Shown here in pieces: positions 11,985 through 27,852 of a stretch of 27,852 nucleotides of DNA. Source of the stretch: a virus; the IMG/VR virus record IMGVR_UViG_3300032323_000768, positions 1-27,852 of that record; one strand, written 5' to 3'. Every line of letters begins with the position of its first letter. Positions within the stretch are counted from its first letter, which is position 1. A program made the translations under genes and the position numbers. The notes under the pieces were generated by a model. That model saw only the letters and a program-made list of their open reading frames with translations. It had not been told where the DNA came from and searched no databases.

Positions 11985-13298
11985 TTATCGTGAAATCTCT
12001 TCCCAGTCCATAGATCCGTAGACACTCTCACCATTAGTTTTGGCTGCCAACACAAGAGAGATTTCAAACGGCGTTCCCGTCAAACTGTTTCTTTCTAGCT
12101 GAAATTTAAACAGTGCTTCTTTGAGAATATCCACAGACACGCTGGTGCTTGCCGTTGATGTAAAGTAACCAGATGCAAGGGTTCTGCCACCTGAAGTACC
12201 AGTGCCTGTTATGTTATATTCAACAGCACTATCAGTGCCTGCACTTACCCATGTTCCACCTGTTGTAGTGGTGCTTGATCTTACCTGCCAGTTGAAGTTA
12301 CTTGCTGTGTCAGCGATACAAGATAATGCAGTAAGAATTACTACAGCATCTAGTGTAGTTGCTTTTAGTCTTAATGAAACAATTGGGTAAAATGTCCCTG
12401 CTGTAGTCAAAGTACGCGCCGCAGTTATTGGAGTACCTATTGCTTGTTGCGAACCTCGAAGTTCGTATCCACCTTCAGAGATTACAGATGAGCAAATTTG
12501 CTTCAGTCTACTGTTGCTCGTTGTTATACCCGTATTGAATATCTCATATCTTAAAGGTAGTGATGCTGTCTGAATGTATGTAGATGTTATGTAGTTGGCA
12601 TGGTGAAATGAATGGCAGTGTATGAATTGACCGTCGATGACAAAACCACATCTTACTGTGCCTAGACCAAGCCATTCGATATCTGTCCATAAAATCTGAG
12701 CCTTACTCATATCCAAGGTTCTCTGAGAAGGACTGCCTGCCGTAGCACCCAACAGGGTATCATAGTTCCAGTCTGCTTGGTTGACTCTTGTTTCAACAAC
12801 ACTACCGCTGACAATCGATCTTTCAACAAACGAGATTGTATTACCTGCTTGCTCAAGATAGATACCATTGTTTGCACCGAAGTAGCCAACTCTCTGTGTT
12901 AGATTGGCTTTGGCTGGTTCCATAACAAAAGTGTTTAGTATAAGGAGAGACTTACCGGGTTGATAAGAGAAGACCTTTGTCGTCTCACGAACGATGTTTG
13001 CACTGTTTGCTGTTGTGATAGCTAGATTAATCAAACCTTCGTTCGGTGAGAAAGCGACTGTGCTATTTCCAGCAGCACTATTGGCGGTAACCCAAAGACC
13101 GTTATCTGAATATCTATGCGAAGAATCGAAAAGCGTCAGAGGAGTAGAAACTCTTGATCTACCGAAAGCATCAACTGCAACACCAGTAGGATTAGCAGGA
13201 CCAACTTGATTACCATATTGGTCAGCCAACATGACAACTTCGAAGATAGTTTTACCATCTGGCAGATATTGATGCGTGTCTTTACGGAACTGTGCCAT
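11985..13298 (-). CDS. virion structural protein
   Basis: A 437-residue protein rich in Thr, Ser, Ala and Gly with few charged residues, typical of beta-structured particle proteins. GVAVDAFGRSRVSTPLTLFDSSHRY, near residue 40, matches a motif ('AFGRLRVS.P.TLFDS..RY') found in structural proteins of T4-like cyanophages and related phages. The C-terminal part (ATLDAVVILTALS through VSVDILKEALFKFQLERN) looks like a beta-sandwich. The exact position in the particle is unknown. The start overlaps the RegA stop (TAATG), so it is translated from the replication transcript unless a late promoter within regA exists; I found no convincing one. Confidence 0.78.
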   Translation of the reverse strand: MAQFRKDTHQYLPDGKTIFEVVMLADQYGNQVGPANPTGVAVDAFGRSRVSTPLTLFDSSHRYSDNGLWVTANSAAGNSTVAFSPNEGLINLAITTANSANIVRETTKVFSYQPGKSLLILNTFVMEPAKANLTQRVGYFGANNGIYLEQAGNTISFVERSIVSGSVVETRVNQADWNYDTLLGATAGSPSQRTLDMSKAQILWTDIEWLGLGTVRCGFVIDGQFIHCHSFHHANYITSTYIQTASLPLRYEIFNTGITTSNSRLKQICSSVISEGGYELRGSQQAIGTPITAARTLTTAGTFYPIVSLRLKATTLDAVVILTALSCIADTASNFNWQVRSSTTTTGGTWVSAGTDSAVEYNITGTGTSGGRTLASGYFTSTASTSVSVDILKEALFKFQLERNSLTGTPFEISLVLAAKTNGESVYGSMDWEEISR

Positions 13299-13702
13299 TA
13301 GTCTTCTCTACGTTTCTTGCCGATATTGTATTTAGTAACGAGAGACCAGTCATTCTTCTCTTTATGAGAGATGATCTTGATCTGACCTAGTGTGGCTACA
13401 GGATCTGAACTCTTCTTAGCATCAACCAGTTCTAACAGCTTCCACTCAGCTAGAAGATTAGCTATCGTATTTCTGCGAGCCACATCGTCTTCTGAGAAGT
13501 CTGATCTTTTACCATCTAGTAGAAAAAGTTCTTTGAAATGTACAAGGTAGTACCTACCTTGCTTGTGTAAAATATGACAGGATTGATATAGAGTTTTGTC
13601 TTTCTTAGAGGCTACACCTATACGAGATAGTGTTTCGCGTATCTTCAGAAAGTCGTCAGGTTCTGTGAGTTTTACCTCTACTAGTTCTTCTAGATTTATC
13701 AT
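13298..13702 (-). CDS. regA: RegA translational repressor
   Basis: A 134-residue homologue of T4 RegA (122 aa). Shared segments include VKLTEPDDFLKIRETLSRIG, KDKTLYQSCHILHKQGRYYL, VHFKELFLLDG and the C-terminal SLVTKYNIGKK. T4 RegA binds early mRNAs near the start codon and blocks ribosome entry on several replication genes. It carries about 12 additional residues, partly near the C-terminus (AKKSSDPVATL). The ATG is inside the 3' end of gp62 (47-base overlap) with AAGGTGG 7 bases before it. Order gp44-gp62-regA matches T4, but polymerase gp43 is replaced by a structural gene downstream. Confidence 0.95.
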   Translation of the reverse strand: MINLEELVEVKLTEPDDFLKIRETLSRIGVASKKDKTLYQSCHILHKQGRYYLVHFKELFLLDGKRSDFSEDDVARRNTIANLLAEWKLLELVDAKKSSDPVATLGQIKIISHKEKNDWSLVTKYNIGKKRRED

Positions 13703-14081
13703 CTAAGCCACCTTTATAAAGTTTCTTCTTTATTTCATTCAGGTGGTCTTCTGAAAGAACTAGCAGAGCATCTTTAGCTTTCTCAGTCGAGTAGTTGTAA
13801 TACTCTTTAACCAAGTCTAAATCTTCAATAGTCTCTTTCTTGTACCACTTCTGATACGGGCGATTGTAGCCTCGTATCCTATTTAGCAGATAGTGGTATT
13901 GAAGAAGTCGGTCTGTATTGGGCAACTTATTCATTTCATTAGCAAACAAGGCGCAATCGCGATGAAACGAAAGCGCCTTGTTAACGACGAAGGGAACATA
14001 GTCCCCTTCGTTTTCGCTGCTGATTACCGCCTTCTTAGTCTTCAGAATAGACGGTATGGTTTCTTTGAATAGGTCTGTCAT
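13656..14081 (-). CDS. 62: clamp loader small subunit gp62
   Basis: A 141-residue protein matching the short gp62 form of T4-like cyanophages: YVPFVVNKALSFHRDCALFANEMN, then LQYHYLLNRIRGYNRPYQKW, then LVKEYYNYSTEKAKDALLVLS and KKLYKGG at the C-terminal end. With gp44 it forms the 4:1 ATP-driven loader that places gp45 on DNA. T4 gp62 is longer (187 aa). The frame opens three codons earlier at a TTG, but ATG 14081 overlaps the upstream stop (ATGA) and is preferred. Its last codons contain the regA ribosome site. Confidence 0.9.
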   Translation of the reverse strand: MTDLFKETIPSILKTKKAVISSENEGDYVPFVVNKALSFHRDCALFANEMNKLPNTDRLLQYHYLLNRIRGYNRPYQKWYKKETIEDLDLVKEYYNYSTEKAKDALLVLSEDHLNEIKKKLYKGGLDDKSRRTSRGKTHRT

Positions 14082-14524
14082 GATTTCCAATTGCTAGATG
14101 AGTACTGAACGAGTAGCTTTTTCTCTTGCTCAGAGACCTCGAAGACTTCTTTCATACCATCTTGATTGATAGGAATCAAGATCATTTCTCGTCCGTCTTT
14201 GGTCTTATGCTTCTTATACTTTATCTCACTACCTTTTATAACATAGACTTTACCTTCAGAGAAGTGTCGTCTTACTGTCGGCACTGAGATAAAGTATACC
14301 TCATCTGCATTTACACACTTGTTTAGCTGATTCTGCTTAAAGGTAAAACTGTCTTTGGTAACGAAAGGCACTTGTGTTTTAACTTCAACAATCTTACCTT
14401 CGACGATCATATCCTTCTGCGAATCAAACTGATTGACAGATATCTCGACCCTCATACCTTGACTGCTAAAGTAGTTCGAGATGATGCTCTCTCCAGCTTT
14501 TCCTAATCTTTCAATGTTATACAT
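14078..14524 (-). CDS. putative PD-(D/E)xK nuclease
   Basis: A 148-residue protein with the layout of small PD-(D/E)xK nucleases. G8-x2-G11-E12 starts a helix. D38 follows, then nine residues on E47-V-K49, ending in KIVEVKTQ. A later helix holds FKQNQLNKCVNADEVYFISVP, as in archaeal Hjc-like and restriction-like folds. The C-terminal third is charged and not recognised. It sits between gp44 and gp62 with a 4-base overlap on the gp62 side and TAGGAA before its ATG, so it is part of the clamp-loader operon. The substrate could be branched or damaged DNA. The fold assignment is by motif only. Confidence 0.65.
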   Translation of the reverse strand: MYNIERLGKAGESIISNYFSSQGMRVEISVNQFDSQKDMIVEGKIVEVKTQVPFVTKDSFTFKQNQLNKCVNADEVYFISVPTVRRHFSEGKVYVIKGSEIKYKKHKTKDGREMILIPINQDGMKEVFEVSEQEKKLLVQYSSSNWKS

Positions 14525-14539
14525 GATACTATTCCTATA

Positions 14540-15475
14540 TCAATTAAATTCACAATCAACCATAATCTCTGTCAGACATGCAACAAGATTGATCTCTTGA
14601 TCGGCCACAAAAGCACTCTGGTATTGATACTTTGATATAATCACTACTGCCTGAGGTATGCTCTCAGGCTTAAAGTACTCATACAGAGAGTCATAAACCT
14701 TACGATAAATACGCGCCGGTTCGATGTCAGAGTTGGTGACAACCCACTTTCGCATCTCGCTGAAGTTGCCTTCTTTGAGAAAGCCTACAAGTTCGCCAAT
14801 CTTTCTTACATCTGATATCTGAGATAGAGTACCAGCATCAATAGAGCCAAAAGCGGAATAACGCTGAAGCTCGTTGAGAGTCCTGCGATAATCAGGGAAG
14901 AACTTTTCGACAATCTTGATAAGAACCTGTTTATCATATTCAATGTTCTCCTTACTAAGAATAGTGGACAGACGAGTAAACAACTGCGCCGCCATTCTCG
15001 GCTTCTCTTCAGCGTGAAGAGTGAAGTCGATAACCGAACAACGAGAATGCAGAGCATCGATTAGACGAGACTTGAAGTTGCATGTGAAGATGAACGTGCA
15101 GTTATCAGAATACTCTTCAATCGCGCCGCGCAGACCAGCTTGTGCTTCTGGCGTAAGATAATCAGCCTCATCAAGAATGATAACCTTACGACCACCAGTC
15201 AGAGAAAGACTTGACGCATAGCCGCGAATCTTAGTTCGCAACATATCGATACCGCGCTCTTCGGACGAGTTTATGAACAGATGGTTCAACCCAATCTGTT
15301 CACACATAGCCATGGCGACAGTGGTCTTGCCAACGCCAGCACTACCAGTAAGCATGAGATTTGGAATGCTATTCTTATCGACGTATTCTTGAAAGACCTT
15401 TTTGATACGATCAGGAAGAATACACTCAGCGACAGTCTTAGGCCTATACTTCTCAACCCACAGAAAATCAGTCAT
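14540..15475 (-). CDS. 44: clamp loader large subunit gp44 (AAA+ ATPase)
   Basis: A 311-residue AAA+ protein like T4 gp44 (319 aa). It begins with LWVEKYRPKTVAECILP, the RFC/DnaX-type start. Walker A is GSAGVGKTTVAMA near residue 44, Walker B is VIILDEADYL near 97, sensor 1 is FTCNFKSRLI, and LHSRC is the SRC arginine-finger motif of clamp loaders. It hydrolyses ATP to open and close the gp45 ring. GGAG stands 8 bases before the ATG. It overlaps the upstream small gene by 8 bases. Confidence 0.96.
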   Translation of the reverse strand: MTDFLWVEKYRPKTVAECILPDRIKKVFQEYVDKNSIPNLMLTGSAGVGKTTVAMAMCEQIGLNHLFINSSEERGIDMLRTKIRGYASSLSLTGGRKVIILDEADYLTPEAQAGLRGAIEEYSDNCTFIFTCNFKSRLIDALHSRCSVIDFTLHAEEKPRMAAQLFTRLSTILSKENIEYDKQVLIKIVEKFFPDYRRTLNELQRYSAFGSIDAGTLSQISDVRKIGELVGFLKEGNFSEMRKWVVTNSDIEPARIYRKVYDSLYEYFKPESIPQAVVIISKYQYQSAFVADQEINLVACLTEIMVDCEFN

Positions 15476-15677
15476 TGTTCTTCTCCAAAAGAGTCATGAT
15501 AACTTTTCGCGCATTATCATGACCCAACTGCTGAACAAAGATGAGTTTAGCAGTTGAAGCCATGATACAGGCGAGCGCAAGTATGTCTTGTTGATCATCG
15601 CACATCATGATCTGTCTGTCAATAGGTTTCATCAACTCTCTCATGCGTGCCATGCGCTCTTCTGGCTTATATGCCAT
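15468..15677 (-). CDS. hypothetical protein, 69 aa, upstream of gp44
   Basis: A 69-residue, probably all-helical protein: a basic amphipathic N-terminus (KPEERMARMRELMKPIDRQ), a central ALACIMASTAKLIF helix and a C-terminal helix LGHDNARKVIMTLLE. It does not match T4 gp33. Its start codon shares a base with the DsbA stop (TAATG), and its 3' end overlaps gp44 by 8 bases, so it is produced with the clamp and its loader. I recognise no family. A small helper of replication or late transcription is possible from position alone. Confidence 0.68.
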   Translation of the reverse strand: MAYKPEERMARMRELMKPIDRQIMMCDDQQDILALACIMASTAKLIFVQQLGHDNARKVIMTLLEKNND

Positions 15678-15970
15678 TAAGGCACCGTATTCTTAATGAT
15701 CAGATCATACGACTCTTCGAATGCCTTGTTCTCTTCGACTTCCTGACCAAAGTTAGCCTTGAAGTACGCCTTCGCCAAACGACGAATCAACTTCTTATCG
15801 ACACCAAGTTCATCGTGAAGAGTGTTGATGATTTCCTTCTGAAGATCGCGTTCAGCAGAAATACGGGTCATGGAATCATTCATTTCCATGATTGCCTTCT
15901 TGAGCTTCTTACGCTCCATATCGTTCAGCGACGAAATGTTGATAGTAGGGGTATTCACAACGGTAGCCAT
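15677..15970 (-). CDS. dsbA: DsbA-like double-stranded DNA-binding protein
   Basis: A 97-residue protein whose C-terminal two thirds align by eye with T4 DsbA (89 aa): ISAERDLQKEIINTLHDELGV, DKKLIRRLAKAYFK, then a glutamate-rich stretch and SYDLIIK. In T4, DsbA binds double-stranded DNA around late promoters and its gene sits next to 33 and rnh. Here it lies between clamp and clamp loader. The frame opens earlier at 15991, but ATG 15970 has GGAG upstream and avoids overlap with gp45. The function is inferred from the alignment, which is moderate. Confidence 0.7.
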   Translation of the reverse strand: MATVVNTPTINISSLNDMERKKLKKAIMEMNDSMTRISAERDLQKEIINTLHDELGVDKKLIRRLAKAYFKANFGQEVEENKAFEESYDLIIKNTVP

Positions 15971-15971
15971 A

Positions 15972-16628
15972 TCACTTCTTCTCCATACCAATGAAATACT
16001 TCAGAGTTCCGGTCTTATTGACCCAACGAGAGAACTTATCAATCTTGATTTCAACTTCATAGTCATCAGGTATCACACGAAGATACTCGGTCTTGAATGA
16101 TGCAATGAAGTTCTTACCGTCATAGTCACCAATTCGAATTGATGCATAGTTCGAACTGTCGTTCTTCAATTCGTGAGTCTTGAAGAATAGACCGCCATCT
16201 AGACCAATCACAGAGATGTTAGGCAAACTATTCATCGCCGCAATCTTAAGCAACTTTTGCAACGAAGCGGCGGTGATGCTAAAACTCACATCTGGATCCT
16301 TCATCAGCAGTTGCTTATCTTCAGGTGGCGTCTTGATAAGATTTGGTGAACATGTATGATAGTTCAGTTTAATCTCGCCATCATCAAGTATAATCATGTT
16401 TGTGTCGAAAGTCAAATCAGGATTGTTGAGTGCAGAGATGTTACCAAGAAACTGATTGAGATCATAGATGCCAACCTTTTCAGGAAAGCTGTCTTGAACC
16501 TGTGCTTCGAACAGAATGACCTGTTCATGATTGATTGTCTTTTGAATATTGCCTTCTTGAAGAACAACACCCGAATTGATACCGGCAAAGTTCTTGAGAA
16601 TGGCAAGAGTATGTTCACTTAGCTTCAT
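15972..16628 (-). CDS. 45: sliding clamp gp45
   Basis: A 218-residue clamp subunit (T4 gp45 is 228 aa). The opening MKLSEHTLAILKNFAGINSG is very close to that of T4. Other shared blocks include VGIYDLNQFLGNISAL, LTFDTNMIILDDG and a C-terminal LKYFIGMEKK. Three copies form the ring that tethers polymerase and also activates late transcription with gp55. A strong TTAAGGAG lies 7-8 bases before the ATG. An extended -10 promoter is just upstream, inside the dNMP kinase gene. The start region resembles the T4 gene 45 RegA target. Confidence 0.95.
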   Translation of the reverse strand: MKLSEHTLAILKNFAGINSGVVLQEGNIQKTINHEQVILFEAQVQDSFPEKVGIYDLNQFLGNISALNNPDLTFDTNMIILDDGEIKLNYHTCSPNLIKTPPEDKQLLMKDPDVSFSITAASLQKLLKIAAMNSLPNISVIGLDGGLFFKTHELKNDSSNYASIRIGDYDGKNFIASFKTEYLRVIPDDYEVEIKIDKFSRWVNKTGTLKYFIGMEKK

Positions 16629-18195: not shown

Positions 18196-18411
18196 TTAGT
18201 CAGTCAAAGACATAAGGTAGTAAGCCTTGCGAACACCGTTGACGGTACGATAGTTCGTGTGAATCTCACACCCTTCATTGCGAAGGTCATGAACTCGCTT
18301 CATAACATTGCTACGCGGAACACGGGTCTTCTTTGCAATCATAGAAGCGGTGAGTCCGGGCGACTGAGTGTTATCAGCAAGAGCATTGAAAACCTTATCG
18401 ATCTGAGCCAT
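18196..18411 (-). CDS. small winged-helix DNA-binding protein
   Basis: A 71-residue protein. KVFNALADNTQSPGLTASMIAKKTRVPRSNVMKRVHDLRNEGCEIHT reads as a winged helix-turn-helix: helix 2 (TASMIAKKT), turn, recognition helix (PRSNVMKRVHDLRNEG), then a two-strand wing (IHTNYRTVNGVRKAYYLM). This resembles small HTH domains of the MarR or LexA-N type, with no additional domain. GGAG precedes the ATG. It lies between two hairpins behind the cobS-like gene. A role as transcription regulator of the neighbouring promoters is plausible, not shown. Confidence 0.75.
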   Translation of the reverse strand: MAQIDKVFNALADNTQSPGLTASMIAKKTRVPRSNVMKRVHDLRNEGCEIHTNYRTVNGVRKAYYLMSLTD

Positions 18412-18442
18412 ACTTTTTCTCCATTACAAATGGTCACTTTCG

Positions 18443-18476
18443 AAAAATGAGAGTATCGAGTGACCGTTCGACACTC
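18443..18476 (-). terminator. hairpin after the CobS-like gene, probable weak terminator
   Basis: GAGTGTCGA and TCGATACTC form a 9-bp stem with one G-T pair and an 8-base loop on the minus strand. After TC comes ATTTTT. It lies 13 bases after the CobS-like stop and could end that transcript. The TTGGGA...GATACT pair within it (17-base spacing) might also act as a weak promoter for the winged-helix gene. Confidence 0.5.
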
Positions 18477-18489
18477 CCAAACTTTTTGA

Positions 18490-19662
18490 TTAGAACGCGA
18501 CCTCATCAGTCAAGGGCTGTTCAGTCGTAGCAGCAGCAGGAGGAGGCGTGATAGTCTCATCAAGCTTCTTATAGAGATCGAGGAAAGATGCCTTCGTGTC
18601 AACATCAAAGCGGTTCAGGCAAAGCTGAATTGCCTTCTCGCGGTTCTGATTGAAGATCACATACGCCTCGCAGATGTGAACAAGACGGCGAGTTGAAATG
18701 ATCTCACTCACGGCGCCCTCATAGAAAGACTTACGAACGATGTCTGCCCAAGCAACCAACTTCTTCACGAAGTCGCCATCGATCACTCCCGACACAGAGA
18801 GAACATTGGTGAGAATCTTCTCTTCAGTCTTTGCGGGCGGATACTCTTGCTCCATCGTGATGCTGAAACGCTCAAGGAAGGCTTCGTTCATGACGTTGGT
18901 ACCAATGAAGCGACCGTCGTCAGAACCCTTACCCTTAGTGTTTGCAGTGGCAATGATATTGAAGCCAGGCTGCGGAGTGATCACCTTGTTGATCTTCTTG
19001 AGATAGATGGACTTGCCTTCGAGAACAGGCTGCAAGCACATCATCTTGTTAGAGCCAAGGTCAACTTCGTCGAGCAGCAGAACCGCACCACGCTCCATTG
19101 CAACGATGACAGGACCATTCTGCCAAACAGTCTTGCCATCTACGAGACGAAAACCGCCGAGCAAATCATCTTCATCAGTTTCGATGGTGATGTTAACGCG
19201 AACCATCTCGCGCTTTTCAGCAGCGCAAACCTGTTCGATCATCATAGTCTTGCCGTTGCCCGACAGACCGGTGACGTACATGGGATAGTACTTACCAGAC
19301 TTGATGATCTGGCGAACATCATTGAAGTTGCCAAACGGCACATAACCATTTGCCTTCTCAGGCACAAGACTGGAAGATGCAGGCACTTCAGACTTGATGT
19401 TGACCGCAGCGAGAGCCATGTCAGCAGCAGAAGTAGCTTCAATCTGAACTTGAGACTTTTCGACAATAGCCTCAACAGCAGAACCTAGATCAAGACTGTA
19501 GACACCACGAGACACGCGGAAGTCAGGATCATTAGTCAACCAAGCTGGCCACGTAATGTTGCGCTTGTTGCAGAGATCAGTGATCTGCTGGCGAGTGATG
19601 GTCTTCACATCACCAAGGTCACGCTTCACGGTAGCGAGAAAGTTGTTGCGAGCGGTAGACAT
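18490..19662 (-). CDS. CobS/MoxR-like AAA+ ATPase
   Basis: A 390-residue AAA+ protein. The N-terminal 105 or so residues contain a short helical domain (KTITRQQITDLCNKRNITWP) as in CobS-like proteins. Walker A is TGLSGNGKTMMIE near residue 131, Walker B AVLLLDEVDLGSNK near 194, sensor 1 NIIATANTKGKG, and LERFSITMEQEYP follows. CobS is the ATPase of aerobic cobaltochelatase. Phage relatives are known in T4-like cyanophages, but their role is not established. I chose ATG 19662 (AAGGA 9 bases upstream) because the one at 19686 coincides with the predicted transcription start. The CobT-like partner is directly upstream. Confidence 0.9.
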   Translation of the reverse strand: MSTARNNFLATVKRDLGDVKTITRQQITDLCNKRNITWPAWLTNDPDFRVSRGVYSLDLGSAVEAIVEKSQVQIEATSAADMALAAVNIKSEVPASSSLVPEKANGYVPFGNFNDVRQIIKSGKYYPMYVTGLSGNGKTMMIEQVCAAEKREMVRVNITIETDEDDLLGGFRLVDGKTVWQNGPVIVAMERGAVLLLDEVDLGSNKMMCLQPVLEGKSIYLKKINKVITPQPGFNIIATANTKGKGSDDGRFIGTNVMNEAFLERFSITMEQEYPPAKTEEKILTNVLSVSGVIDGDFVKKLVAWADIVRKSFYEGAVSEIISTRRLVHICEAYVIFNQNREKAIQLCLNRFDVDTKASFLDLYKKLDETITPPPAAATTEQPLTDEVAF

Positions 19663-19692
19663 AATCACGTTTCCTTCGTTGATCATGAGAGG

Positions 19693-19721
19693 ATTATAGG
19701 CGATGAAAGGGGTTGTGTCAA
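19693..19721 (-). promoter_or_regulatory. consensus sigma70 promoter for the CobS-like gene
   Basis: A perfect match on the minus strand: TTGACA at 19721-19716, a 17-base spacer and TATAAT at 19698-19693. The predicted start is near 19686, leaving a leader of about 24 bases. The -35 lies in the loop and 3' arm of the hairpin at 19706-19728. Confidence 0.9.
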
Positions 19722-19731
19722 CCCCTTTTTT
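19706..19731. terminator. 10-bp hairpin between the CobT- and CobS-like genes
   Basis: AAAGGGGTTG and CAACCCCTTT form a perfect 10-bp stem with a 3-base loop. Six T residues follow on the plus strand, while the minus strand has only three, within the stem. It stands 8 bases after the CobT-like stop and likely reduces read-through on the minus strand, and stops antisense transcription on the plus strand. Because the -35 of the cobS promoter is inside it, an operator is an alternative. Confidence 0.6.
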
Positions 19732-19739
19732 GTAACAGT

Positions 19740-21929
19740 TTAGGCTGCGTTCTTGATCTTACCAGCAACACGCTCCATAAAACGGCTGAGGAGCAGACGA
19801 TTGATCGACTTCTTTTCCGCAAATCGAAGAAACTCTTTAGCAGCCATTTTCTTCGACATTGTAGAATCAACCTTCAACTCTTCAACAGCCGCACTCTGAC
19901 GAAACGACTTCGGATTGATGACATAGTATTCATCATATCCTTCACTGGTTACGGGAACGAAAAACTTTTCATTCCACAACTGCGAAGCCTTCTTACCATA
20001 TTCGGTCGATGCGGTCGTCTCATTCAAGAAATGCCGCGAAACAGTAGTAAAGGCGGACGAATCATACATGAAGAAGCCGACAAGATTACACTCAGTACGA
20101 TCTTTCAAAATCTTCAACATAGTGATTGTTACGTTGCGGCTAGGACCGCTCATGTCGAACGTATACTCTTTCTTGGACTTCGGATCTTGATAGATGAAAG
20201 TTTTCTTAATGCGTTTTCCTTCAGGTGTGGAATAAGCAGATATGCTGTTATCCGAAAAACGATTCCAGTTACTTTCGCCGTCAGTGAGGAAGATCGTGTT
20301 AACAACCTGCAACTTGTACTTGTTACGGAAGTTATTCACAATCTGATCTGCCACAAAAATAGTTTCGTTCAAAGGCGTACCGTGCATTCTCTCACATGCA
20401 GGAACACGATCAGCCGCAGCCCAGAGATAGAGGTAAGCACGATTCAGTTCATTTGCATTCATGCGAGAAGACAGAACATTTCGAATCACAAGGTCATTGC
20501 TAAAAAACAAGTGTGCTTCGTTGTCGTGATTATCGCGCACAAAACGCTCATCAGCTTTTGCACCGTCGCGAAACAGATAAACCTCGAAGGGAATCTGCAC
20601 GCGCTTACAGAACATGGTAAGCGACATAAGCTGGCGAACAGTATACTTCAGATTGGACTGCATAGAACCAGACCAATCAAGAAACATAACGAAGCCGTGG
20701 TTCTTACCATTAGGCACAACCGACAGACGACGAAAGATATCATCATTGTACCGATACGAGTGCAGCTTGTTGGTATCGATCACACCAGTCTTTGCAATCG
20801 ACTGACGCGAATAGATATCAGCAGCCTTACGCTGTTCGAACTCTTTCACCATGAAAGAGATTGTGTTGTTCTCTTCATTACGAATCTTAGACAGTCCCTT
20901 ACCAATAGTCTCAAGCCAGTCAGCTTCGTACTGCCAAACCTTAGTGGCCTTATAGGTGTAAAAGTCCTCATGGTCTGCGAGAAACTTTTTGTAGTCTTGA
21001 ACGATCTTGGAGAGATCGGGCTTAGACATAGACATGTAGACATACTTCATCGTGCCATCAGCGAGACTCGAACGAGACTTTTCATAAGCCTCATCAGTTT
21101 CGGACTTGGGAATGAAATCTTCGTCAGTCTTACCACCGTCACGACTGCTTTGATTGTCCTCGTTTTCACGAGCATCATCGGAGTCGTCATACGACGAATT
21201 GCGACCGGTATTGCTGTCGTCAGTTTCTTCGCCGTCACCATCATCAAAAATGATGTCGCTATCTTCGTCGCCGTCTTCATCACCTTCGCCAATCATGAAG
21301 TCGTCAGATGCAAGTTCCTGATCATCTTTGCGAGAAGCGGCAAGACGATAAAGCTCTTCAGTCAGTTTGATAACATCTTCGAACGTCTCTGTCGTATCCA
21401 TACGATTAAGAAGACGACGCTCATCAGAAGAGAACTCAAGGCTTATCGTGATCGAACCACCCTTAAAGTAAAGGTTGGCACGGTCAATGAACGAAAGAGA
21501 ATTAGGATCACGACCGCTAAGACCGAAGAAGTCACGATCAATCAACTCCTTGTAACCAGCGAGGTAGTTGCGACGAGAACCAGGATAACGAAGCTTCTGA
21601 AGGCGGTCGATACGAGCATCCTCAACAACATTGAGAAAGCCCTTGACGGCCATCACGTAACGATTTTCCTGTTTGCCGTGAACATCTTGAGCGATACGCT
21701 TCAAGGCGTCGAGCCAACCTTCGCAAGGTGTATCAAGAGCGTGACCGACTTCGTGAATGATGAGCATATCATTCAGGTCTTCAGAGATACCCTGCCAGAC
21801 AGGCAACGTCAGGACTCGACGCTTCACATCAAACGATGCAGTCTTTGCGGTCGAGTCCTGACGGATAGAGATGTTTTCGGTGGCCAGCAACTTAGCCAGC
21901 AGAGACTTAGACTGAACAGTAGGGGTCAT
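19740..21929 (-). CDS. CobT-like protein: zincin domain plus VWA domain
   Basis: A 729-residue protein in three parts. The N-terminal domain has HEVGHA at 59-64 and NVVEDARID at 100-108, which together look like a gluzincin-type zinc metallopeptidase site (His59, His63, Glu103 as ligands, Glu60 catalytic). A very acidic linker lies at about 206-260. A VWA domain starts near 412 with the metal site D418-W-S-G-S422, T518 and D550. CobT, the partner of CobS, shares the acidic linker and VWA. Relatives annotated CobT or peptidase occur in T4-like phages. It has its own promoter and GAGG before the ATG. The substrate is unknown; remodelling or cleaving a target protein with the AAA+ partner is inferred. 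Confidence 0.88.
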   Translation of the reverse strand: MTPTVQSKSLLAKLLATENISIRQDSTAKTASFDVKRRVLTLPVWQGISEDLNDMLIIHEVGHALDTPCEGWLDALKRIAQDVHGKQENRYVMAVKGFLNVVEDARIDRLQKLRYPGSRRNYLAGYKELIDRDFFGLSGRDPNSLSFIDRANLYFKGGSITISLEFSSDERRLLNRMDTTETFEDVIKLTEELYRLAASRKDDQELASDDFMIGEGDEDGDEDSDIIFDDGDGEETDDSNTGRNSSYDDSDDARENEDNQSSRDGGKTDEDFIPKSETDEAYEKSRSSLADGTMKYVYMSMSKPDLSKIVQDYKKFLADHEDFYTYKATKVWQYEADWLETIGKGLSKIRNEENNTISFMVKEFEQRKAADIYSRQSIAKTGVIDTNKLHSYRYNDDIFRRLSVVPNGKNHGFVMFLDWSGSMQSNLKYTVRQLMSLTMFCKRVQIPFEVYLFRDGAKADERFVRDNHDNEAHLFFSNDLVIRNVLSSRMNANELNRAYLYLWAAADRVPACERMHGTPLNETIFVADQIVNNFRNKYKLQVVNTIFLTDGESNWNRFSDNSISAYSTPEGKRIKKTFIYQDPKSKKEYTFDMSGPSRNVTITMLKILKDRTECNLVGFFMYDSSAFTTVSRHFLNETTASTEYGKKASQLWNEKFFVPVTSEGYDEYYVINPKSFRQSAAVEELKVDSTMSKKMAAKEFLRFAEKKSINRLLLSRFMERVAGKIKNAA

Positions 21930-21953
21930 GTGTGCCTCACAAATCTTGATTAC

Positions 21954-21982
21954 AATATACGGGCATTCGTGAGGTCTGTCAA
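21954..21982 (-). promoter_or_regulatory. sigma70 promoter for the CobT-like gene
   Basis: TTGACA at 21982-21977, a 17-base spacer and TATATT at 21959-21954 on the minus strand. The predicted start is close to 21947, about 18 bases before the ATG. It shares GGGGTTGACA with the cobS promoter. Confidence 0.85.
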
Positions 21983-22005: not shown

Positions 22006-23613
22006 TCAAGGTTTTCTAAAGACAAAGATCGGTTCATACTTAAGCATAAGCTTCTTGTTTTTCGATTGAACTTCGCAATAGTTCTTCATCATACCTTTAA
22101 CAACAGACACTTGCTCAACCGTATTGCCGAAAATGGTTGACGTTACCAGTTCTTCTTTCTCACCAGTCTCGACGGTACGATTACCACCAGGCATCTGCGC
22201 GAGCGTCATCTTGATTGTCGTCACGTATTCCATACCCAGCGACTTGAGTATGTTGCAAGAGTCCTCTTCAAGAGGTAAGAGTTCTCCATCAAATGCGGCG
22301 TCAGCAATGTTCCACAAGAGGTAACGATCACTCTTCAGATACTCAACACAAGTTTCAAGTGTCGATCTAAGAAATCCATCTCGCCACGCTTCATATTGAT
22401 TGAACTTATGACAAGACTGTTCAGGATCATCAGAGTAAACTTCTTTCGCGAAATATGGAGGCGAAGTGAAGATCATATCGATCTCACCCTTATACTTCTG
22501 AAAACGAGGATCATCACCAATCACTTCTGATCCTCTCTGAAACATTTCGTATGTGTGATGATCACCATACAAAGTGCCATCAATACGAACGTTCTCGTTG
22601 AAGAAATCAGCAATCTCATGATACTTGGTACGACCATCATGAGTATTGTGATCCGTATTCGGGTCAGTGCCTATGTAGTGAATCTTGCGTTTAACGTCTA
22701 CAGACATTGCACCAATAAGACGACCGCCCCAACCAGAAGAAGGGTCATAGATGTTAATCTGATCTTGCTTATCGATGTGTGCAGTAAATCTTTCGTAAAG
22801 ATACCTAGCAGTCAGAGGAGGGAAGTTGACTGCATACTGACAGAACGAAACACGAAATGCTTTCAGACCAACAGGAAATACTTTCTGTCCTCTCTTGAAG
22901 AGTCGGATTGTATATGCGTTCGATCTGTCGATATCGACATTCGTCTTTGTTCTTGTAGGTGAATCGAATGCAGCATCAACGATGAGATTCTTTCTCTTAC
23001 CAAGTTCCACATTATAACCAGTATACGTCTTATTCTCTTTGACAGGGCAGAGCCAATAGTCGTACTTGTCCTTATCTACATTAGATTCGAACCATTCTAC
23101 GAAATCTGTCGCATCTGTTACACGATAAGGCGCAACATTCAAAGACAACACATCACCTTCCGATATGGGAGATGAATAATGGTAAAACGAATCTCGCTTG
23201 AAGTGTCGAGAAGCATACGTGACAAAAGTATCAAGCAAAGCAGGATCAGCAAAGTAGTCGTAAATGGACTTTGCATTACCCTTTGTGCTATATGAAATCT
23301 TTGTCTTCATCATAGTAGGGAAGAATTGATTAACAGCATTGCCGATGACAGAGGTATTGCGAATGATATCCTTTTCGACTTCAAGTTCATGAACAGAGAA
23401 GGAAATCATCTTTCGAAAATTGTCAACGATCTCGTCTTCGTTGTAACCGACGCGAGGTGGCAGACCTTTATGATCCCAAAGATCAATCACAGTCTTTCGC
23501 ATGTCTACTACCCACTGACGAAACTCAATATCAGTCATCCACAAGAGTTCTTCGAACGTCTTGTTGACAGGGCTGTTGATTAGTTCTTCATTCTTTTCGT
23601 AGAACCACTTCAT
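22006..23613 (-). CDS. DNA methylase-like protein with large N-terminal region
   Basis: A 535-residue protein. The C-terminal half is an amino-type DNA methyltransferase: IYDPSSGWGGRLIGAMS near 288-304 is motif I (SAM binding) and IDMIFTSPPYFAKEVY near 378-393 contains motif IV, S-P-P-Y, as in N4-cytosine or N6-adenine enzymes. YLLWNIAD and PIFVFRK follow. The order (motif I before IV, short gap) resembles the gamma arrangement. The first 280 residues are not recognised and may hold target recognition or another activity. It has its own sigma70 promoter. It could protect phage DNA or modify bases. No cognate endonuclease is adjacent. Confidence 0.82.
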   Translation of the reverse strand: MKWFYEKNEELINSPVNKTFEELLWMTDIEFRQWVVDMRKTVIDLWDHKGLPPRVGYNEDEIVDNFRKMISFSVHELEVEKDIIRNTSVIGNAVNQFFPTMMKTKISYSTKGNAKSIYDYFADPALLDTFVTYASRHFKRDSFYHYSSPISEGDVLSLNVAPYRVTDATDFVEWFESNVDKDKYDYWLCPVKENKTYTGYNVELGKRKNLIVDAAFDSPTRTKTNVDIDRSNAYTIRLFKRGQKVFPVGLKAFRVSFCQYAVNFPPLTARYLYERFTAHIDKQDQINIYDPSSGWGGRLIGAMSVDVKRKIHYIGTDPNTDHNTHDGRTKYHEIADFFNENVRIDGTLYGDHHTYEMFQRGSEVIGDDPRFQKYKGEIDMIFTSPPYFAKEVYSDDPEQSCHKFNQYEAWRDGFLRSTLETCVEYLKSDRYLLWNIADAAFDGELLPLEEDSCNILKSLGMEYVTTIKMTLAQMPGGNRTVETGEKEELVTSTIFGNTVEQVSVVKGMMKNYCEVQSKNKKLMLKYEPIFVFRKP

Positions 23614-23676: not shown

Positions 23677-24483
23677 TTAGCGCCCTACATTCCACACTAA
23701 ACAAGGTTCAAGTCGTGGTGTTGTCTTATGATAATCAATCATTGGTCGCCATACTTTCGCATCATATGTTGGAGCCGAAGGAAATGGCGGCGCGTCTTCT
23801 TTCTTTACTGGCTTATCGAACTTGTAAGGAGACTTGTGAAAGATTGCTCGACCAATTTCTCTATCTGACATGGTATGACCAGTAGAGACAACGTGTACAA
23901 CAGCATCAGGGAATGCATATTGTAGAGATCGCGATAGTGTGCCGGAAGAGCCGACCGACCATATCTCTCTAGGTTTGATCGGTAAACTTCTGGCAACTTT
24001 GATAAGGCATCCAATAGAAGTTGGGTGTTCGAGTCCCATTGGAAGCAGTCTACGTTTTTCTGGGTTTTCTGCGACATAATCTTTTGCTCTCTTTTGAGTT
24101 ACTGTCATCATGCCATCAGGTATCCAATGATATATACCACCCAAATCAAGACCGCGTTTTTGATACTCATGCAGCTTTTCCATTGAACGGGCTGCCATGA
24201 ATAGTATCGCTTTCTTGCCATAACGATTGCAGATATACGGCAAACTAATCTGTGCATATCCTGTTGCAGGAGAAGAACCGTATACCCACTCTTCTACATC
24301 TTTATTTTCTTTCGAATGACCAATTAGAAAGTCACCCGCTCTCGCTTTACTGCCAACGTCAAGAAGATCGTCGCGTACAACGAAATAACCATCATGCTCA
24401 GTGAGTACAGGATCCGGATTAGGATCCTGCCAATCACCAATCAGATTGAGATAGTCTTCTGCATTATCAAAAAATAAACTCAT
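23677..24483 (-). CDS. PLP fold-type II-like protein (ACC deaminase/D-cysteine desulfhydrase group)
   Basis: A 268-residue protein with the main landmarks of fold-type II PLP enzymes. VRDDLLDVGSKARAGDFLI (36-54) parallels 'KR.D....GGNK.RKLE.L', with K46 as the Schiff-base lysine. GSSPATGYAQ (69-78) matches the substrate Ser/Thr loop. LLPMGLEHPTSIGCL (146-160) parallels the 'IP.G.S.P.G..G' motif of D-cysteine desulfhydrase and ACC deaminase, and VGSSGTL (177-183) is the phosphate-binding loop. It is about 60 residues shorter than those enzymes. The ATG overlaps the gp46 stop (ATGA). Function unknown: amino acid lyase, or a step in base modification given the adjacent methylase. Confidence 0.68.
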   Translation of the reverse strand: MSLFFDNAEDYLNLIGDWQDPNPDPVLTEHDGYFVVRDDLLDVGSKARAGDFLIGHSKENKDVEEWVYGSSPATGYAQISLPYICNRYGKKAILFMAARSMEKLHEYQKRGLDLGGIYHWIPDGMMTVTQKRAKDYVAENPEKRRLLPMGLEHPTSIGCLIKVARSLPIKPREIWSVGSSGTLSRSLQYAFPDAVVHVVSTGHTMSDREIGRAIFHKSPYKFDKPVKKEDAPPFPSAPTYDAKVWRPMIDYHKTTPRLEPCLVWNVGR

Positions 24484-26192
24484 ACCAACCTGCTAAAGTT
24501 CTTTTGCTTCTGAAAACGATATACCTTTTGAAACTTATCAAGCATCGCATCTGTTTTATGAGAGATGACAAACACATTCGTGTCTGCAAGTACATTCCAC
24601 ATGATCTTTAGAAACTCATCTGTACCGTTGTTATCAAGAGAACCGTCAAGCACTTCATCAAGAATGAGTAAGTTGGTGTTTACCGAGTTACGCATCTTAG
24701 CAATTGAACGCCATGTGAACAGCAGTGCAAGGTCGATTCTAGTTTTCTCACCTTCTGAAAAGTTGTGATATGAAAACTCGTCACGATAACGACTCTTGAT
24801 TGTTTCTTCAAACTGTTCGTTGATATTGAAGTTGACGAAGAAACCCATCTGCGCCAAGTACTTGTTGATTAGTTTGTTGATGATCGGCAGATACTGCTTG
24901 ATGATCTTTGACTTGATGCCGCCGTCTTTCAACAGATTGACTGCAACATCGATATATTTACGATCTTCGAGTAGTTGAGTTCTTTCATCATTCAGACTTT
25001 GTATATCAGTAACCACAAGTTTCAACTCTTCTTCGTTTGAAGAAAGTAAGCTATCTGAAGATTTCAACTCTTCGATTTGTTTTCGTAGATCATCAATACT
25101 TGAAGTGAGCGAAGACTGCTTTGTTCTAAGGCTCGCAATCTCACTCTTTACAGAGTTCATTTTTGATATGATGATATCCAATGCGTTCAAATCACCGATT
25201 GTCTTATCGATCTGAATCTGAATGTTATCAAGACCCTTTTCAAGCTCGATAATCTTAGACTTACTCTTAGATAGTTCTCCCGACTTGAAAGACTCATCAA
25301 TTGATTGTCTGCAAGTAGGACAGCTATCATAGTCGCAAAAGAAGTTATGATCGTCTCGTGTGCGCTTTAAGTTAGTATCGATCTTAGACGCCAAGGAGAC
25401 CAGTTTGGTATGTCTTTCCTTGAGCGCAGACTGTTCGCCGGCTCTTTCGATAAGAGATTCCCGCTCTTCTTCTTTCTCAGTAATGCTTTTTTCGACTTCG
25501 GCAAGATCAGCCATCTTTCGTGTCGATGAAAGAAGAAGGGATTCACTTTTACTCTCGTTGTTTTCTCTGAGCTTTTCAATCGTCTTTTCAACATATGTTT
25601 TCTTCTCCTCTTTACCTGCTATCTCTAAACGATTCTTCTCAAGCAGTTCTTTCGTGAGTTGCATCTTTTGCTTTGCAATAAGATTCATTATAGAGAAGAC
25701 TTGAATATCAAGTAAGTCTTCAATCACCACACGACGATCAGCAGGAGATAACTGCATGAAAGGTGTAAAAGATGCAGAACCAAGAATGACAATCTGAGTG
25801 AACGACTTATAGTTCATCTTGAGAATGAACTTCTCTAAATGTTCCTGATAGTCCTTTGATGATGAATCTTGATTGAGAAGAGTCCCGTCACAGTAAATTT
25901 CGAAGACAGTCGGCTTTATACCACGAATGACTTTGTATTGTCTGCCGTTCGTCTTAAACTCTATCTCAACAAGACAAGCCTTTTCGTTAACAGAGTTTAC
26001 AAGCAACGGCTTGTTTATCTTACGAAAAGGCTTGCCGAAAAGAGCAAAAGTAAGAGCGTCAAGAATGGTAGACTTGCCAGCACCATTTTCACCGATGATG
26101 AGCGCATTAGTCGTCTCGTTAAGTTTGATTTCTGTGAATGCATTGCCTGTGCTGAGAAAGTTCTTCCATCTAATATTTTCGAATGTGATCAT
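24480..26192 (-). CDS. 46: recombination nuclease subunit gp46 (Rad50-like ATPase)
   Basis: A 570-residue SMC/Rad50-type protein (T4 gp46 is 560 aa). It starts with [19 protein letters not shown]. Walker A GENGAGKS is at 34-41. Long coiled-coil arms (rich in E, K and S) flank the zinc-hook CPTC near the middle. The C-terminal lobe has [15 protein letters not shown] (signature) and [13 protein letters not shown] (Walker B and D-loop), then VFVISHK. With gp47 it resects DNA ends for recombination-dependent replication. It overlaps gp47 (ATGA) and is followed by the PLP-like gene in the same way. Confidence 0.97.
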
Positions 26193-27262
26193 ACATGTTC
26201 CATCGATATTGCTTCGTTGTAGATATCTCGCATAAAGATTTTTATCTTATCTGAATCCACAGGCAATGTCAACCCGTCAATGTACTTGGTCAATATTGTC
26301 GGCGTATCTTCAGCCTGATCTATCTTTTCTTCATCATTAGTATCTTTGAATACAGAAACATCTTCAATGATAGAGATATCAATCGGTGATGCCTTATATA
26401 ACTTGTCAAGCATAGTGTCGAACGCATACGGGTTTGTCTTGTTGACACAGACGACCTTTACGAAACATCCAGAATACTTCGAATAGTCAGTAGCGTTGAT
26501 CTTTTCTAGTATGTCTTGATGCTTCACATCGTCATAAGCGAGCATCGAAAAGATAGAGTTTGGGTTACGATAGAATGTTACTTTTCTAGTTTCCGTATCC
26601 AAGACACTAAACCCTCTTGGGTCAGCATAGTCAGACCAAGTGTATTCAGCAAAAGCACCAAGATAATGAATGTTACCGATAGAGGAACGATGATGGTAAT
26701 GCCCACTAAAAACAAGGTCAAAGCGAGAGAAAACACTACGATCCATGCCATGGTCGCTAATAGTACCGCGAAACATTTCAAAACCAGTAACTTCAAGATG
26801 ACCCATGAGGATATCAGCAGGTGACTTATTGATTGCTTCAATCGACTCATCATAGTTAGACTCCGTGATCCAAGGCAATAACTGTATCTTACAACCATCA
26901 ATCTCGACAACTTCAGGTGTGTCATAGATGTTGATGTATGAATAACGTCCATCAACAATCTCGCGAAGAGCGTTCACTTCGTGTGTATTCTTAAAGTACT
27001 CATCATGATTGCCAGCGATGATATGTGTCGCAATATTACGACGATCAAGTTCTTCTAGAAAGTCTTCGCGACAACGCTTGGCTGTCATGAAGTTAAGATA
27101 CTTGCGACGATCAAACAAGTCACCAAGATGAATGACATGTCTGATTCTCTGCTCGTCTATAACTTGAAAAAACTGCTCAAGCGACTTCTTGAAGTAGTCA
27201 TAGAAAACGGGGCTGTCATTTCTGACGCCCCAGTGCGTATCAGTAATGAGTGCAACTTTCAA
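26189..27262 (-). CDS. 47: recombination nuclease subunit gp47 (Mre11-like)
   Basis: A 357-residue metallophosphoesterase (T4 gp47 is 339 aa). The metal-binding motifs are ITDTHWG at 6-12, [12 protein letters not shown] near 44, [10 protein letters not shown] near 80, ILMGHLEV and [11 protein letters not shown]. It acts with gp46 as an end-processing nuclease on double-strand breaks. The start codon is TTG, with GAGG 7-8 bases upstream. No ATG exists in frame before the D-x-H motif, which begins at residue 8, so the TTG is required. It is separated from the small upstream gene by one base. Confidence 0.96.
26244..26272 (-). promoter_or_regulatory. possible internal promoter before gp46
   Basis: TTGACA at 26272-26267, 17-base spacer, TAAGAT at 26249-26244 on the minus strand, inside the 3' end of gp47. 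It has the GGGTTGACA context seen at the hsp20, cobT and cobS promoters. The -10 is only four of six, so it may be a coincidence. It could allow independent expression of gp46 and the PLP-like gene. Confidence 0.4.
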
Positions 27263-27263
27263 A

Positions 27264-27458
27264 TTAAGCCCTCTTCTTTCTCACATTAAACATGGCGTCA
27301 TCATTCTTATACTTACGCAACGAAGTGTCAATCGCATCACGAATAGACTCAAGACGAACACGATAGTTATCTCTAATGTGAGAACGCTCAGTCTTGTTCA
27401 TCATGCTATCAATTAAGCTTTGTACCTGAAATGGAATGTTGTGTGATTCATCCTTCAT
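27264..27458 (-). CDS. small conserved protein between gp55 and gp47
   Basis: A 64-residue basic, helical protein ([21 protein letters not shown], then [19 protein letters not shown]). A similar short protein, with 'IP..VQ.LID.ML.K....R.NY..RL..I..AI...L..Y', is present near this place in T4-like cyanophages as far as I recall; no function is known to me. Earlier in-frame ATG and TTG codons exist, but the ATG at 27458 has GAGGA about 9 bases upstream, inside the end of gp55 (11-base overlap). It probably belongs to the gp55-gp47 transcript. Confidence 0.7.
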
Positions 27459-27852
27459 CTGTCTTTTCCTCATAAAACTTCGCAAGCCCTTCTTTCATCT
27501 GCTTGCGCTTAATCTTCTTTGCTTCTTCCTTCTTCTCAAATCTATTCATAAAGTCGTTGATATTATCATACATTGAAGAAGGAAGCAAGTTCTTATCGTT
27601 GTCATCGACAAACACGAACGACTCATGTTCACCTTGTGCGGCACCATGAATGATACTGTGCTGAAAGTTTTTGTAAATGACGTATCGATTCTTCTCTTCT
27701 TTACTTATTCTACGCAAGAAGGCGTAGTAGATCACTTGAGTGAAGTATGCGAATGGGTTCTGTCCTATCTCAGGATTGTAGTCTTTGAAATACAGAATGC
27801 AGTTCTCTATGCCATCCGACACCATCTCATCTCTATATGAGTAGTTGATGAA
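27448..27852 (-). CDS. 55: late sigma factor gp55, 5' end outside window
   Basis: The frame is open to the right edge, so the N-terminus is missing; 134 codons are visible including the stop. INYSYRDEMVSDGIENCILYF, then NPFAYFTQVIYYAFLRRISKEEK and RYVIYKN, are the region 2-like core of T4 gp55 (185 aa), which binds the host polymerase core and recognises TATAAATA late promoters. Near the C-terminus, GLAKFYEE could be the short clamp-binding segment, though T4 places it at the very end. It starts the operon that continues to gp47 and gp46. An internal ATG at 27825 is not the real start. Confidence 0.93.
   Translation of the reverse strand, partial: FINYSYRDEMVSDGIENCILYFKDYNPEIGQNPFAYFTQVIYYAFLRRISKEEKNRYVIYKNFQHSIIHGAAQGEHESFVFVDDNDKNLLPSSMYDNINDFMNRFEKKEEAKKIKRKQMKEGLAKFYEEKTDEG

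Follow-up and report, generated by a model that had tools for sequence, protein, structure and literature searches.

We analyzed a 27,852-base viral DNA sequence, the whole of record IMGVR_UViG_3300032323_000768 (hereafter, the window), which covers part of the genome of a T4-like phage. It carries two adjoining genes, encoding a protein with a zincin-like and a VWA domain and a MoxR/CobS-type AAA+ ATPase, followed by a small winged-helix (wHTH) gene. All family-matched genes in the window are on the minus strand. The main features are listed here:

19740..21929, minus strand: zincin-VWA protein, 729 aa, phrog_459 'peptidase' (PHROG E 4.7e-181)
21315..21929, minus strand: N-terminal zincin-like domain, residues 1-205 (nearest folds zincins, Z up to 7.2)
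21741..21755, minus strand: HEVGH motif (residues 59-63) with the putative zinc ligands and the putative catalytic Glu
21618..21623, minus strand: E103-D104, putative third ligand, on helix 89-114 of the model
21105..21317, minus strand: acidic low-confidence linker, approximately residues 205-275 (composition and model confidence)
20718..20795, minus strand: candidate pore 'finger', residues 379-404 (KTG..DTNKLH..Y..DDIFR; near-invariant positions, hhalign to CobT)
19764..20705, minus strand: VWA domain with metal ion-dependent adhesion site (MIDAS) D418xSxS, T518, D550 (NorD and MDN1 fold matches)
18490..19686, minus strand: MoxR/CobS-type AAA+ ATPase, phrog_249 (AAA_5 E 6.3e-18; PHROG E 1.1e-119)
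18196..18411, minus strand: winged-helix protein, 71 aa (weak MarR_2/HTH matches)

The three genes are where an earlier sequence-only reading had placed them. Its proposed architecture of a zincin site, an acidic linker and a VWA domain was also recovered: the HEVGH motif, the E103-D104 pair (in the context NVVEDARID), the linker (D+E = 35% over residues 205-300) and a complete MIDAS (DWSGSM, residues 418-423) were all located. We assessed conservation in an alignment of 203 rows, made up of the window protein and 202 long homologues taken from IMG/VR and from named phages, which holds near-identical sequences and leaves 93 N-domains upon dereplication at 85% identity. H59, E60 and H63 were kept in 199/199 rows covering the site; loss of HExxH in most phage homologues, which would have spoken against a peptidase, did not appear. 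E103, D104 and R106 were unchanged in 200/200 covering rows, and the MIDAS residues in 203/203. Among 78 N-domains, 17 columns were invariant, including H59, E60, H63, N100, E103, D104 and R106. The same residues were unchanged in a smaller, overlapping set of 67 proteins with Pelagibacter, Stenotrophomonas and Ochrobactrum phages. An HExxH motif with a downstream Glu, as in gluzincins, is thus present and conserved.

An AlphaFold2 model of the N-domain alone (mean predicted local distance difference test (pLDDT) score, 92.6) showed strands leading into the HExxH helix and then the E103 helix, while pLDDT was <50 for linker residues 205-270. The top-ranked solved folds for the N-domain were zincins: ZMPSTE24 (Z 7.2), BlaR1 (6.2), ArdC (6.1), selecase (5.8) and IrrE (5.2). 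Because of the residue invariance, the confident N-domain model and the zincin ranking at low Z, we consider a zincin site well supported and a working peptidase moderately supported, on sequence and model grounds. The zincin N-domain (21315-21929) had no Pfam match of any kind, though hundreds of phage genomes encode the protein.

The VWA domain matched best the VWA domain of NorD (Z 16.9) and the MIDAS domain of MDN1 (Z 16.6), ahead of generic VWA domains (Z 13.8). By analogy with NorD (PMC9976466), residues 379-404, just before the VWA domain, may serve as a pore finger. The AAA+ core is of the MoxR/dynein type, with PDB matches to midasin, CobS (9ujv, E 6e-26), NorQ and CbbQ, in line with the CobS/MoxR-like partner proposed earlier. 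The AAA+ gene was located ≤4 kb downstream of the VWA gene in 102 of the 104 homologous loci that could be tested. Both marks of a MoxR AAA+/VWA pair, a linked MoxR-type ATPase and a VWA partner with an intact MIDAS, are therefore present. PADLOC matched neither protein. We did not find a bacterial relative of the VWA protein in genome contigs scanned with the VWA alignment. The Ochrobactrum and Stenotrophomonas phage proteins, used as queries, retrieved no loci among viral contigs, and a plasmid search with the Ochrobactrum phage protein gave no match.

The pair itself is already known. The VWA protein occurs in 463 of 50,697 phage records, most of them from phages of Synechococcus and Prochlorococcus, with a best identity of ~34%. 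Both proteins match PHROG profiles (phrog_459 and phrog_249) and adjoin, as in the phage pair, and the order gp46 - VWA - AAA+ - gp45 is shared, apart from small insertions, by S-RSM4, S-PM2, P-HM2 and an Ochrobactrum phage. The pair is core in cyanophages (PMC3037559, PMC8651126). Chelatase and peptidase readings have both been published: one study interpreted the pair as the CobST of tailed viruses, called 'peptidase' a mistake and proposed that host CobN is hijacked (PMC8651126), and another reported, for group 2.2 jumbo phages, a MoxR-vWA pair that includes an N-terminal metallopeptidase and proposed a role in virion assembly (PMC7824862). What the present analysis adds is the test of conservation, the test for CobN, the conserved sigma70 promoters, the conserved wHTH neighbor and the covarying pseudoknot in the wHTH leader.

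Each gene of the pair has a conserved promoter:

21954..21982, minus strand: sigma70-type promoter of the VWA gene, 11/12 match
19693..19721, minus strand: sigma70-type promoter of the AAA+ gene, 12/12 match, overlapping an inverted repeat, GGGGTTG-ACA-CAACCCC

Matches of at least 11/12 were found in 18/47 distinct upstream regions for the VWA gene, 29/37 for the AAA+ gene (the window being counted in both sets) and 18/39 for the wHTH gene, whereas first-order Markov shuffles gave a chance level of 0.1-0.4%. No such promoter precedes the wHTH gene of the window itself. Promoters of equal quality also precede methyltransferase-like and glycosyltransferase-like genes. Of the earlier suggestion that sigma70 promoters mark early action on the host, the promoters themselves are real and conserved; they are a regional trait rather than special to the pair, and do not indicate a target. 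The late TATAAATA was not found at the cassette. Because the -10 element of the AAA+ promoter ends just 6 bases ahead of the first ATG, the true start of the AAA+ protein is probably the second ATG (19662), which is preceded by GAAGGAAA. The inverted repeat (19693-19727) overlaps the -35 element of this promoter, and similar repeats occur in loci L018 and L032; a terminator-promoter overlap and an operator are both possible. The earlier suggestion was that the wHTH protein may control the set; its gene is a steady neighbor of the pair, but we found no operator common to the three promoters in the window, where the promoter-like AGGGGTTGACA alone was repeated, at two of them.

We assigned the window to a T4-like phage because gp55, gp47 and gp46 lie on one flank of the pair and gp45, gp44, gp62 and RegA on the other, so that its surroundings are genes of replication, recombination and late transcription:

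24480..27825, minus strand: T4-like syntenic block with gp46, gp47 and a gp55-like sigma factor (family matches)
13298..16628, minus strand: T4-like syntenic block with the gp45 clamp, gp44, gp62 and RegA (family matches)

The interval from gp46 to the VWA gene is occupied by methyltransferase-like and threonine-dehydratase-like genes (22006-23613 and 23677-24483). psbA, a core gene of T4-like cyanophages (PMC3037559), was not found in the contigs of 7 long relatives (136-174 kb); the host of the window phage is therefore probably not a cyanobacterium.

Taken together, we lean, by a little better than even, toward an ATP-driven remodeling machine whose zincin cleaves the protein presented to it, probably made early and not a cobaltochelatase. 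In NorD, an N-domain and a disordered linker precede the VWA domain, whose finger reaches into the pore of hexameric NorQ and whose MIDAS probably binds the target (PMC9976466, PMC13036017). This plan is repeated in the phage VWA protein. By analogy with NorQD, CbbQO and midasin, the AAA+ protein would form a hexamer, the VWA partner would dock in its pore via the segment before the first VWA strand, the MIDAS metal would grip an acidic residue of the target, and ATP turnover would pull or twist that target. Judging from sequence and fold, the N-terminal zincin would bind zinc and cleave the presented protein. Targets in replication or transcription takeover would be favored over virion maturation, because gene position and early-type promoters point there. 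Several points weigh against this interpretation. The zincin fold matches are weak (Z ≤7.2; Foldseek E ≥0.4), and Pfam peptidase models did not match the window protein. The usual activity of MoxR/VWA partners is metal insertion or remodeling without cleavage, and the HExxH site could be a metal holder for delivery. The proposed early timing of the pair is read from promoter type. The observations of the sequence-only reading are confirmed, and its interpretation as a regulated protease or remodeling machine is partly supported.

The published proposal that viral CobS and CobT join host CobN to make cobalamin (PMC8651126) appears unlikely to us here. The AAA+ protein does resemble CobS, both in the PDB match and in the CobS model TIGR01650; its score with that model, 97.3 bits, is far below the curated cut-off of 558.55 bits. 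Profile comparison with hhalign connects the VWA domain and the preceding segment to alphaproteobacterial CobT (E 6e-6), and a distant common origin is therefore likely for that part. The VWA protein had no CobT match in NCBIfam (E ≤10) or to Pfam PF06213 (0.1). Alphaproteobacterial CobT has an HHDxxxH-like stretch and no HExxH, whereas the phage proteins keep HExxH without exception. A short E..ARxE..G..N match between the zincin domain and the CobT N-domain was not significant (P 0.02; hhalign probability 2%), and the N-domain fold matches listed included no CobT structure. The window, being a fragment, says little by its own lack of CobN, and we examined relatives instead. CobN was not found in the contigs of 12 relatives, some of them fragments, so the CobN-like gene that could have overturned the earlier doubt about metal insertion did not appear, and that doubt holds. 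Cyanobacterial hosts can carry CobN-type subunits (the search control included Synechococcus elongatus). CobN was detected in 0/147 Pelagibacteraceae genomes, with positive controls detected; this is the host family of two carrying phages and not that of the window. Yet the pair is present in the Pelagibacter phage HTVC008M, and the VWA gene was also found in phage Mosig. Because of the active-site conservation, the zincin-ranked folds, the NorD/midasin match of the VWA domain and the absence of CobN from these contigs and genomes, a MoxR/VWA remodeling machine with a probable zinc peptidase is better supported than a cobaltochelatase.

Among 115 Alphaproteobacteria genomes, drafts included, 45 had CobT and CobN, 40 had CobT without CobN and 2 had CobN without CobT. 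One Pelagibacter genome (L178) carries a J-domain-like gene, cobS and cobT consecutively. Cellular CobST may have a role without CobN as well.

We also weighed three other interpretations against a remodeling peptidase. A virion-assembly chaperone with proteolytic maturation, as proposed for jumbo phages, has an identical architecture in its favor, together with a phrog_1645 structural-protein relative and an Hsp20 ~5-8 kb downstream and the involvement of a MoxR-VWA system in archaeal virus tail development (PMC7824862). The host-type promoters, the lack of a late promoter at the cassette and neighbors that are chiefly replication and recombination genes stand on the other side; the location and the early-type promoters are mild evidence against virion assembly, which we regard as improbable though the least so of the three. 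It is about as unlikely as the cobaltochelatase that the HExxH domain holds a metal while the AAA+/VWA motor opens a metalloenzyme, e.g. ribonucleotide reductase. Iron is inserted in this manner by NorQD (PMC13036017), the system that gave the VWA domain its best structural match. However, merely holding a metal would not need the invariant catalytic Glu, E60. To our knowledge, metal delivery is not an established role of zincins. Finally, the zincin might cleave the neighboring wHTH repressor, as in the IrrE/DdrO or BlaR1/BlaI pairs. The wHTH gene is a steady neighbor in the window's clade, located downstream of the AAA+ gene in 71/81 loci (its own included; the remainder are mostly contig ends), and the nearest folds to the N-domain include BlaR1 and IrrE. 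The wHTH protein, however, had no match in the 50,697 phage records, of which 463 carry the zincin-VWA protein; it therefore cannot be the general target, and we consider this explanation very improbable.

Viral ecology often classes phage 'cobS/cobT' among the auxiliary metabolic genes for vitamin B12. Should the pair prove to be a remodeling peptidase, this would mean that a core function has been misread in phages that are very abundant in oceans and fresh water. The Pelagibacter case, in which a phage carries the pair and the host family lacks CobN, makes the question directly testable.

The wHTH gene is preceded by a structured leader, with these elements:

18448..18479, minus strand: hairpin S1 of the wHTH-gene leader (12 bp; loop ACGGUCAC)
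18432..18437, minus strand: GUGACC, 3' strand of pseudoknot helix S2, partner of loop GGUCAC at 18460-18465 (covariation)

A short-loop hairpin was present in the AAA+ to wHTH spacer of 27 distinct leaders, that of the window included, and in most of these the loop pairs with the stretch directly before the wHTH ribosome site. The resulting H-type pseudoknot (window 18432-18489, minus strand) covaries and was also predicted in most of the 26 other leaders. Distinct helices were fully paired (6/6) in 19/22 cases, compared to 12.5% with swapped partners, and 0/5000 permutations reached the observed pairing sum; the best pairing per leader was chosen by search, and likewise in the swapped and permuted controls. 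A 471-kb scan yielded 22 such pseudoknots on the plus strand (15 at a wHTH leader), whereas the minus strand gave 4 and shuffled sequence 2. Rfam gave no match at the gathering threshold in the window, and weak chance matches alone in the leader. Covariation thus provides strong evidence for a conserved RNA pseudoknot in the wHTH leader, a candidate regulatory element that can be checked separately.

A sister type has long hairpin loops, and these are complementary in the antisense direction to TCGTGAAAGGAA, the sequence at the ribosome site of the VWA and/or AAA+ gene. Such spacers between the AAA+ and wHTH genes were observed in loci L018, L024, L027, L035, L038, L042 and L048 and in contigs G005 and G006. 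In G005 and G006, two long contigs, the 10-mer GTGAAAGGAA has just three copies: the VWA site, the AAA+ site and the antisense loop copy. A DNA operator bound by the wHTH protein could explain this pattern as well as an antisense RNA. The window loop had no such antisense match to the VWA or AAA+ ribosome sites, and in the short-loop type, including the window, complementarity between loop and ribosome sites did not exceed background (mean percentiles 0.46 and 0.38), L003 excepted. A more far-reaching interpretation, which we consider rather unlikely, is a self-contained, RNA-controlled module comprising the ATP-driven zinc peptidase pair and a wHTH gene whose structured leader would regulate the module. 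Control would lie with the pseudoknot upstream of the ribosome site of the wHTH gene in the window type and with an antisense loop in the sister type.

Among known systems, the cyanophage phrog_459/phrog_249 pair (S-PM2, S-RSM4, P-HM2) is like that of the window in its domains, gp46-to-gp45 order and invariant residues. Unlike in cyanophages, the window pair is followed by a wHTH gene with a structured leader, its VWA protein is at most ~34% identical to theirs, and its long relatives lack psbA. The jumbo phage MoxR-vWA system (PMC7824862), compared by description only, has the same architecture and partner ATPase; it was assigned to virion assembly, whereas the position and promoters of the window pair look early. 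Bacterial CobS/CobT share the AAA+ and VWA cores and the segment before the VWA domain with the window pair, and differ in having an HHDxxxH-like stretch in CobT where the phage protein has HExxH; the phage pair lacks CobN and falls below the CobS cut-off. NorQ/NorD and CbbQ/CbbO, like the window pair, combine a MoxR AAA+ protein with a VWA partner built of an N-domain, a linker and a VWA domain, and provide the best VWA fold match; the phage pair differs from them in its zincin-like N-domain.

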